From assembly GCF_000337135.1 (NCBI RefSeq), contig NZ_AOIN01000083.1:20085-71009 (forward strand): DNA of 50,925 nt, given 5' to 3'. Below, piece by piece: positions 17,700-20,799 of the stretch. A program made the translations under genes and the position numbers. The stretch is from Natrialba chahannaoensis JCM 10990 (GTDB taxonomy: Archaea; Halobacteriota; Halobacteria; Halobacteriales; Natrialbaceae). The notes beneath the pieces are model-generated. The model searched no databases. It was not told the DNA's origin and saw only the letters and a list, made by a program, of their open reading frames with translations. The stretch's first letter is position 1, and every line of letters begins with the position of its first letter.

Positions 17700-17961
17700 A
17701 CCGGTCTCGTCGTCCGTTCGAGACAGGCAAGACAGTCCTGACCTGTCGTTCGACGTTGTTTCTGGTGGTCTCATTGCGTTGTTGTCAGCTAGTCCGGGTC
17801 CGACCACGTCCTGTAGGCAGCGGTCAGTGACCTGTTCGACCAACCGTAGTGGAGCGCCTGCGAGCAGTGGCAGCCTCTCTCATCTTCCCTCCTGTTCCTC
17901 ACCCCGTGTCGGTGTCTGTTATCGAAATTCGCTACCATAATATCCAATAATTATTAGTATC

Positions 17962-17983: not shown

Positions 17984-18940
17984 ATGTGTCTTGATTGCAC
18001 AACCCACGGTTCAGACCGAGAGCAACACTCGAGTACCGACGACCGAGAGACGACCAGCCATAGCAACTGGAAGCGGCGATCGTTCCTGCAGGCGACCGGC
18101 GTCGCTGCCGGGACCGGGACGATACTGGGTACCCAGGTAGACCGCGCGGCAGCCTCACACACCGAGTGCGACGCCGCGGACCGCTGGGTCGAAGCGGCGA
18201 ACCACAGCGCACGCGACTTTGGCATCGACTGGATCGTCATCCACGTCACGGCGGGTGCCTATCAGGGCGCACTCAACACGCTCACCAGTTCGAACTCGGA
18301 TGTGAGTTCACACTACCTCGTGAAGAACTACGACTGGACGGACGGGCCGTCGGCGGGTCACGTTGACCAACTCGTCCACCACAACCGCGCGGCCTGGCAC
18401 GCCCGCTACATCGCCAACCACCGTTCGATCGGTATCGAACACGAGTGGTTCGACGACAACGGCATTTCTGAGGCCTGCTACGAGTCCTCCGCCGAACTCG
18501 TCCGCTGTATTGCGGACATGCACGACATCCCACTCGAGTTCTATACGAGCAATACCTGCATCCAGAACGAGTCGGGCGGGATCATCGGGCACACGCACGT
18601 GCCGGATGGCGACTGTAGCAGTTTCCACCACGGTGGCCGAACCTGTCCGTATCCGGACTGGGATATGGATCACTTCGAGACGCTGGTGAAAAACGGAGAC
18701 AATGGCGGCGGTGGCGGCGACCAGTTCCAGGACGGCGACCAGGTCGTCACGACGACGGACTTGAACGGGCGCGAGCAGCCGTGTCTCAACGACGACGTCG
18801 TGCTGACCTTACCCGAGGGAACCCAGGGAGAAGTCATGAACGGTCCCGAGGAGTGCGACGGTATCACCTGGTGGGGGCTACACGTCCCCACGTACAACGA
18901 ATGGGTCTGGTGTTCGGAGAACTATCTGGCTCACGCTTGA
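17984..18940 (+). CDS. Tat-exported N-acetylmuramoyl-L-alanine amidase-like (PGRP-fold) protein
   Basis: A 318-aa secreted protein. A Tat signal (KRRSFLQATGVAAG, R31-R32) ends near residue 57. The amidase_2/PGRP domain spans about 60-235: first zinc ligand H87 in WIVIHVTAG, catalytic-loop SSHYLVKNYDW, IGIEHEW, and GHTHVPDGDC supplying H203 and C211 (as in phage T7 lysozyme and animal PGRPs). A Gly linker (241-245) leads to an SH3-like C-terminal domain (about 247-318: DQVVTTTDLNGREQP to WVWCSENYLAHA). Bacterial enzymes of this kind cut murein. Haloarchaea lack murein, so the target would be other organisms' walls, or the fold is reused. The architecture of catalytic domain plus SH3 resembles secreted bacteriolysins. 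Confidence 0.85.
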   Translation: MCLDCTTHGSDREQHSSTDDRETTSHSNWKRRSFLQATGVAAGTGTILGTQVDRAAASHTECDAADRWVEAANHSARDFGIDWIVIHVTAGAYQGALNTLTSSNSDVSSHYLVKNYDWTDGPSAGHVDQLVHHNRAAWHARYIANHRSIGIEHEWFDDNGISEACYESSAELVRCIADMHDIPLEFYTSNTCIQNESGGIIGHTHVPDGDCSSFHHGGRTCPYPDWDMDHFETLVKNGDNGGGGGDQFQDGDQVVTTTDLNGREQPCLNDDVVLTLPEGTQGEVMNGPEECDGITWWGLHVPTYNEWVWCSENYLAHA

Positions 18941-19006: not shown

Positions 19007-19528
19007 TTATTCTGTGGCACCATCATCGCGGTTTTGGTCGAGTTCGGTGGCCAGCTTTCGTTCGGACGCGTCGTAGGACGACCCGAGTGCAATCAGAAAC
19101 CCAACCATTGCGGTAATCAGTGCAACACTGCCGATTGCGACGATACCGATCGAAACCAACACACCAGACAGCACCTGCCCGGCGGTCAGCAGCGAGACGG
19201 CTGTAACGGCGGCGATGAGCGTCAGGAGTCGGGCCAGTCTTCCCGTATCGAGACCGCGGTACGTCCGCTCACCGGTCGTATCGAGCAACACCGATAGAAT
19301 ACCAGTATAGGCGTCGTCAGTTCGTGCGTTGCCGAGCGAGTGAATCGATTGGACGACCCAGGCACCGGCGGTGAAGTTGAGGAATGCAACGAACGAGACG
19401 AGTCCCAGTTCCCCATCGACGAACAGCCCACTCAGGATTGCTCCAGAGAACGTGATGGCCATGACTGCGTGTGTCAGGAGCGATCGAGTGCCAAAGTCTT
19501 CGAGGCGAGCCGTGAATTCGAAACTCAT
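19007..19528 (-). CDS. four-helix membrane protein
   Basis: A 173-aa membrane protein with four likely transmembrane segments (about residues 18-35, 42-62, 101-119 and 125-147) and an acidic soluble tail (ASERKLATELDQNRDDGATE). Start chosen at ATG 19528 (MSFEFTARLEDFG); the open frame upstream is Cys- and Arg-rich and unlike the rest. It converges with the amidase gene and is divergent from pelA. I do not recognise a family. Confidence 0.72.
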   Translation of the reverse strand: MSFEFTARLEDFGTRSLLTHAVMAITFSGAILSGLFVDGELGLVSFVAFLNFTAGAWVVQSIHSLGNARTDDAYTGILSVLLDTTGERTYRGLDTGRLARLLTLIAAVTAVSLLTAGQVLSGVLVSIGIVAIGSVALITAMVGFLIALGSSYDASERKLATELDQNRDDGATE

Positions 19529-19731
19529 GCAGGAGATAGGCACACAGTAGTGATAACGGCGCTTCCTAACCCTGTTGGACGTAATCTCACAGGCGGCTAT
19601 CACCATTACACCGAACCGACTTACGCTGGTGAGACAACATCTGTCAGCGGTCACGCTCCAGCCCACTGTGTGACCATCGATCCACTGGGCAATCCGTCAC
19701 GCACTTACCGTGACCCCGAGAACAGCACCGT

Positions 19732-20799
19732 ATGCAAATTAAAGACCGGGAACCGCTCGACGGCGGGCGCGAGCGGGTTACCGTCGTCCCCGAGAGCGTC
19801 GACGACCTCTGGCATCTCCAGTACGTGCTAGAGCCCGGCGACCGCGTCGCTGGCGATACGACCCGGCGCATCCAGCGCAACGACGACCAGATGCGCGATA
19901 CCGGCGGCGAACGCGAGCACATGTGGGTCGCCATCGCCGTCGAGGACATCGAGTTCCACAAGTTCGCGAACCGACTGCGCGTCGGCGGCGAAATCGTCGC
20001 CTGTTCGCGCGAGGACCAACTGGGCTTTCACCACACGCTCAACGTCGAGGAACGCGAAGAGCTCTCGATCGAGAAGCGCTTCAAGCCCGACCAGGAAGCC
20101 CGACTTGAGGAGGCCGAGGAGGCGACCGAGAACCCGGATGTCGCCATCGCCACCGTCGAGGAGGGACAGGCCCACGTCCACACAGTCGCCCAGTACGGTA
20201 CCGAGGAGCGAGCGACGATCACCGGCCCCACCGGCAAGGGTGAGTACGCCCGCGAGCGCTCGGAACTGTTCGCCGAACTCGGTGACGTACTCAAGCGCCA
20301 GGACGCGGACGCAATAATCCTCGCTGGACCGGGCTTTACGAAACAGGACGCCAGAAAGTACCTCGATAACAACGAGCCTGCGGTCGCCGAGAAAATCACG
20401 ATGGTCGATACAGCAAGCGTCGGCGACCGGGGCGTTCACGAGGTCCTGAAGCGCGGCGCGGTCGCAGACGTACAGCAGGAGACACGCATCGAGAGCGAGG
20501 CCGAGTACATCGACCAACTCACCGAACGCATCGCCCAGGGCGCAAAAGCGGCCTACGGCCCCGAAGCAGTCCAGCAGGCCGCCGAGTTCGGTGCGATCGA
20601 ACGGCTGCTGATCCTCGACGACCGTCTACGCAAGGAGCGCGGCCCCGACGGCGAGTGGGCCATCGACGTCGACCAGGTCGTCCGTACGGCCGAACAGAAG
20701 GGCGGCGAGGTCACCGTCTTCTCGAGTGAGTTCCCGCCAGGCCAACAGCTCTCGAACCTCGGTGGCATTGCGGCACTGTTGCGGTACCGACTCGAGTAG
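19732..20799 (+). CDS. pelA: mRNA surveillance protein Pelota (archaeal Dom34)
   Basis: A 355-aa archaeal Pelota. With the GTPase partner aEF1A and ABCE1 it splits stalled or empty ribosomes. Domains: an N-terminal Sm-like domain (about 1-130; [30 protein letters not shown]), a central eRF1-like domain (about 135-260) and a C-terminal L30e-like domain (about 262-355; [30 protein letters not shown]). It has no GGQ release loop, as expected. ATG 19732 lies about 27 bases after a weak CACTTACC box. The gene shares the neighbourhood with rqcH. Confidence 0.95.

Follow-up and report, generated by a model that had tools for sequence, protein, structure and literature searches.

Why would an archaeon without murein keep a gene that resembles those for secreted peptidoglycan amidases? 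The question is raised by an open reading frame in the 50,925-nucleotide stretch of Natrialba chahannaoensis DNA analysed here (the window), which an earlier note, made from the sequence alone, had described as a secreted bacteriolysin of PGRP type.

Genomic context, selection and ancestry

The reading frame was confirmed and its orthologs are conserved. Its product begins with a Tat-type leader, which is followed by an Amidase_2 domain and, across a Gly linker, by an SH3b domain. The gene and its surroundings are as follows:

17984..18940, plus strand: Amidase_2-SH3b gene, 318 aa
15516..17699, plus strand: rqcH, ribosome rescue, syntenic landmark (RqcH by NF041120, 825 bits)
19732..20799, plus strand: pelota, syntenic landmark (TIGR00111, 285 bits)
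19007..19666, minus strand: ORF of unassigned function between the amidase gene and pelota (no Pfam or NCBIfam match)
17944..17958, plus strand: AT-rich block CCAATAATTATTAGT, candidate archaeal promoter element (largely conserved in Natrialba; putative role)

The matches to RqcH and Pelota confirmed that two ribosome-rescue genes flank the amidase gene, with the opposite-strand ORF placed before pelota. This ORF (19007-19666, 219 aa) is found at some orthologous loci and missing at others. The block CCAATAATTATTAGT lies 26-40 bases 5' of the start codon, is largely kept in Natrialba orthologs and has one match in the whole window versus 0.01 expected. Together with the 284-bp gap upstream of the gene, its conservation makes a promoter of the gene's own, as claimed before, plausible. 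A scan for sigma-70-type promoters was set aside as uninformative for an archaeon, and an Rfam search near the amidase gene gave no match.

Orthologs of 80-95% identity are present in Natrialba and Natronorubrum, with further ones in other Natrialbaceae genera, and most of them adjoin pelota, usually with rqcH nearby. We rejected a plasmid location, as the orthologs stand in a conserved chromosomal gene order. When compared with eight orthologs, dN/dS ranged from 0.04 to 0.09 for the catalytic part and from 0.01 to 0.14 for SH3b (leader, 0.06-0.35; linker, 0.12-0.55). Purifying selection on the catalytic and SH3b regions is strong. It is thus extremely improbable that the gene is an endolysin from a prophage or a passenger, acquired horizontally and now decaying, as weak PHROG endolysin matches might suggest: dN/dS is far below 1, the core chromosomal context is conserved across genera, the GC3 of the gene is near that of its neighbours (0.79 vs 0.81), the product has a secretion signal, and no phage genes were seen among the neighbours examined.

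The earlier note had also called for a phylogeny to look for a bacterial origin. The haloarchaeal catalytic domains clustered together (support 94/95) next to sequences from Actinomycetota, in a tree whose bacterial part was a small sample from plasmid and phage records plus a few viral contigs. Within this small sample, the sequences fit a bacterial ancestry of the haloarchaeal amidases. A viral source of the amidase gene was considered and rejected, with only four distant relatives among the viral contigs and weak phage matches.

Predicted export signal

The N-terminal region has the following features:

17984..18157, plus strand: Tat-type leader, residues 1-58 (sub-threshold model matches; motif in relatives)
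18074-18079, plus strand: RR of the Tat-type leader, residues 31-32

The leader shows KRRSFLQ at residues 30-36; a hydrophobic stretch comes next, and around residue 58 the cleavage region is rich in Ala, with A-A-A-S preceding residue 59. Despite the clear RR motif and hydrophobic stretch, it scores just under the cut-offs of the Tat models of Pfam and NCBIfam. Of 85 relatives and SH3b partners from haloarchaea, 81 have the same two elements; the four exceptions are a fusion protein, a truncated contig and two reads in which the leader seems to be out of frame. We therefore describe the Tat signal proposed earlier as a Tat-like leader, a probable export signal. Its N-region is unusually long (~30 aa), and the start MC-L-x-C is conserved. 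In the amidase genes of L022 (1228-2217) and L011 (1456-2031) the leader region appears to be out of frame, possibly through decay or a sequencing error. With a pI of 4.5 and 42 acidic vs 10 basic residues, the mature protein is strongly acidic, as expected for an enzyme working in high salt.

Fold and predicted zinc site of the amidase domain

We assigned the catalytic domain and its residues as follows, scoring conservation across 44 aligned relatives from haloarchaea:

18224..18652, plus strand: Amidase_2 zinc amidase domain, residues 81-223 (Pfam profile and fold match)
18242..18244, plus strand: H87, predicted zinc ligand (invariant, n=44)
18590..18592, plus strand: H203, predicted zinc ligand (invariant, n=44)
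18644..18646, plus strand: C221, predicted third zinc ligand (Cys 24/44, Asp 20/44, no exception)
18437..18439, plus strand: E152, AmpD-type catalytic Glu position (invariant, n=44; role suggested by AmpD)
18314..18316, plus strand: Y111, putative active-site Tyr position (Y 41/44, F 3/44)
18614..18616, plus strand: C211, probable disulfide with C192 (all-or-none covariation)

The Amidase_2 domain named in the earlier note was recovered by the Pfam search (PF01510, residues 81-223, E 2e-18, 67.4 bits vs a cut-off of 26). For the mature protein, an AlphaFold2 model (mean pLDDT 86) had AmpD as its best match (Foldseek E 3e-9; Z 18.8 with 2.2 A over 150 residues), followed by PlyL and AmpDh2 (Z 17.2 each), with lower scores for PGRPs (Z 12.6-13.8) and T7 lysozyme (12.7). 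In the PDB, the profile of the domain matched AmpD, AmpDh2, AmiD, XlyA and PlyG/PlyL. The structural comparison with PGRP and AmpD that had been proposed thus returned an amidase fold closer to AmpD, and the label "PGRP-type" holds at the level of the superfamily, whereas AmpD, AmpDh2 and PlyL, rather than animal PGRPs, come nearest among solved folds.

The zinc triad had been read as H87, H203 and C211. Both histidines are invariant, but a role of third ligand is very unlikely for C211: it is missing in 6 of 44 relatives, always together with C192, whereas column 221 always holds Cys or Asp and aligns with the Asp of the AmpD KTDPG motif, which points to C221 instead. By alignment, then, the predicted ligands (His, His, Cys/Asp) are H87, H203 and C221. 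The earlier note probably arrived at C211 by counting eight residues on from H203, as in T7 lysozyme and PGRPs; an insertion that includes C211 places C221 18 residues past H203, compared with ~8 in those proteins. As for C211 itself, it probably forms a disulfide with C192, since the two cysteines are both present in 38 of the 44 relatives, both absent in 6 and discordant in none (C192 was scored as present within a few alignment columns). The pairs C62-C175 and C267-C291 showed the same all-or-none covariation.

The position of Y111 is presumably that of Y46 in T7 lysozyme and Y78 in PGRP-LB. Profile alignment to T7 lysozyme was too poor for residue mapping and was discarded. One residue counts against the amidase reading: R219, two residues before the last ligand, stands where many amidases carry Lys. 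Many PGRPs are non-catalytic, and given the PGRP matches the window protein might likewise bind murein without cutting it, as zinc-less PGRPs do. We regard this as very improbable, as the ligand positions are all kept in the 44 relatives and the domain is under the strong purifying selection described above.

Linker and SH3b module

The C-terminal part comprises two features:

18689..18721, plus strand: Gly-rich linker, residues 236-246 (low pLDDT; dN/dS 0.12-0.55)
18722..18937, plus strand: SH3b, putative wall-binding module, residues 247-318 (predicted disulfide C267-C291)

Both the Gly linker and the SH3-like domain of the earlier description were found again. Modelled alone with 20 relatives (A2 model), the SH3b reached a pLDDT of 97.6 and adopted an SH3 fold, its matches being SH3 folds. 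A Foldseek search with this model found nothing at E 0.001 or better; a computed YrvJ-YacD model ranked first. The best PDB matches of the SH3b profile were SH3b domains of cell-wall hydrolases, with an autolytic lysozyme at the top (4krt, E 2e-4). By analogy with these enzymes, the module would bind bacterial walls. PF08239 (SH3_3) gave no match to the window SH3b, which lies below its detection, and a PF08239 search of the window's own genome came back empty because the Pfam model misses this SH3b; PF08239 matched 13 of 21 haloarchaeal SH3b relatives weakly, with some relatives above its cut-off. On plasmids, SH3b relatives were represented by a single haloarchaeal record. In L117 (2732-4432), a GH18 (chitinase-like) domain is joined to two SH3b copies, so the module may also bind other polymers, for example chitin-like ones.

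Related enzymes in haloarchaea

Amidase_2 exceeded the cut-off in 50 of 391 sampled haloarchaeal genomes, ~1 in 8, so the window gene is not an isolated curiosity. Window-type SH3b was present in 46 of the 391, and both domains occurred together in 42 genomes, largely because they share one protein. Other fusions of the same SH3b involve M23, SLT/SLT_2 and glucosaminidase domains (two at once in L115 and L116). In L045 (2057-4462), L050 (3911-6439), L102 (4252-5798) and L107 (4197-5726), genes with Tat leaders stand in tandem; they encode different murein-cutting domains and each bears a window-type SH3b. In L113 (3572-4669) and L114 (3542-4342), SH3b is joined to a C-terminal domain without a Pfam match that looks SleB/Hydrolase_2-like by eye.

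Relatives named "peptidoglycan recognition family protein" already stand in public records of haloarchaea. The NCBIfam "peptidoglycan hydrolase" models NF052335 and NF052336 match a few relatives and leave the window protein unmatched. Our literature search found no report on haloarchaeal amidases or on MurNAc catabolism in haloarchaea.

At slightly less than even odds, we propose that haloarchaea own a modular lysin system in which one SH3b module has moved between different catalytic partners (amidase, M23, transglycosylase, glucosaminidase), at times within tandem gene clusters, and which is tied to MurNAc loci in some genomes, Natrialba having a single fixed lysin. If so, haloarchaea with modular lysins would be predators or consumers of bacteria, and Natrialba would be a lineage that keeps one fixed lysin to kill, without sugar salvage.

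Comparison with known systems

Three archaeal peptidoglycan hydrolases are known to kill bacteria (PMC12352652; PMC4241558). Two are haloarchaeal and kill a halophilic bacterium, Woldo (M23 with two PG_binding_1) and Danwoldo (glucosaminidase with two PG_binding_1), both from Halogranum salarium (Strock et al., 2025; PMC12352652); the third is the GH25 muramidase of Aciduliprofundum boonei (Metcalf et al., 2014; PMC4241558). Like Woldo and Danwoldo, the window protein comes from a haloarchaeon and has a murein catalytic domain joined to a small wall-binding module (putative in the window protein); it would probably also share their Tat export. It differs from them in its predicted zinc amidase chemistry and in carrying SH3b instead of PG_binding_1, and it is known from sequence, its killing being proposed. 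The A. boonei GH25 is, as the window protein would be, a wall enzyme of bacterial origin in a murein-free archaeon, but it has an unrelated fold and cuts the glycan strand. Judged by its sequence, the window gene adds to the archaeal peptidoglycan hydrolases another, predicted catalytic chemistry and another, putative binding module. As Strock et al. surveyed only proteins in which Pfam recognises a binding domain (PMC12352652), and PF08239 missed the window SH3b, surveys of this kind can undercount such enzymes.

The nearest solved folds, AmpD and AmpDh2, share the ligand order H-H-D/C; they lack SH3b, and their third ligand is Asp, compared with Cys in the window protein. In bacteria, AmpD is cytoplasmic and AmpDh2 periplasmic. 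Lysins of phages and bacteria, among them PlyL, PlyG, XlyA, LytA and AmiE, also combine an amidase fold with a wall-binding module and act from outside the cell or on release; they differ in serving phage release or autolysis and in their binding modules. Animal PGRPs and T7 lysozyme belong to the same superfamily and have a Cys third ligand, but their fold match is weaker (Z ~13) and their ligand spacing shorter.

Killing, feeding or self

The fold, active-site residues, selection, export signal and SH3b context together make a secreted murein amidase in this archaeon well supported. With no murein in its host, the enzyme would act on a foreign substrate. We therefore favour, with a probability of about 0.72, a Tat-exported, salt-adapted zinc N-acetylmuramoyl-L-alanine amidase that lyses neighbouring bacteria. 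Zinc would be held by H87, H203 and C221, and E152 and Y111 would assist in hydrolysing the bond between MurNAc and L-Ala of bacterial murein; the SH3b, on its Gly linker, would keep the enzyme at the bacterial wall. Cutting this murein would likely lyse neighbouring bacteria, for competition or for release of their contents. Catalysis, wall binding and killing are what we infer from the sequence, fold, conserved active site, selection and domain context.

Some Natrialba make poly-glutamate, and the substrate might instead be a surface polymer of the archaeon itself, such as a glutamyl polymer or a glycan. Vertical retention at one chromosomal place in several Natrialbaceae also looks housekeeping-like, unlike the plasmid-borne, patchy weapons described by Strock et al. 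(PMC12352652). We nevertheless consider this improbable: haloarchaeal families other than Natrialbaceae have related enzymes, the partners of SH3b are murein endopeptidases, transglycosylases and glucosaminidases, and the fold is that of murein amidases.

Another alternative is a feeding enzyme that breaks down the murein of dead or living bacteria for uptake of peptides or sugars. Whether bacteria are killed to compete or to eat was named as an open question by Strock et al., who were the first to demonstrate killing by such haloarchaeal enzymes, left scavenging open and found Opp-MppA uptake genes enriched (PMC12352652). In our sample, NamZ and AnmK occurred together in 15 of 391 haloarchaeal genomes (NamZ alone in one more; Halorussus vallis is one haloarchaeon with both), and amidase genomes were enriched among them (10/15 vs 1.9 expected, p 9e-7). 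The three loci inspected, L155 (4453-18336), L156 (2864-16411) and L067 (whole), join NamZ/AnmK with varying combinations of four further elements: GH3/NagZ, an AmpH-like serine hydrolase, peptide uptake (an ABC importer or a family-5 peptide-binding protein) and a wall enzyme (an SH3b-glucosaminidase or a short amidase). However, the amidases of these loci are of a short kind without SH3b. In addition, searches found no NamZ, AnmK, GH3, M23, SLT or glucosaminidase and a single amidase in the window genome, whose assembly is 96.8% complete, so that single absences are not proof; NamZ and AnmK were likewise missing from six sampled Natrialba congeners. Scavenging is thus a live alternative for the wider family and less so for the window genome, where we consider it rather unlikely. 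The absence of NamZ, AnmK and GH3 led us to prefer a killing or lytic role over sugar salvage for the window amidase; feeding on peptides alone would be a further possibility. A natural contrast lies between genomes that have a lysin only, as in Natrialba, and those that combine lysins with a MurNAc-utilisation locus.

Among the proteins scanned, no MurQ-type etherase was seen, so that a complete route through the MurNAc-utilisation loci would be putative. In these loci, L155 (10701-11936) and L067 (6801-8087) encode proteins of ~410-430 aa without a family match, which might fill a gap in the route, for example at the etherase step.
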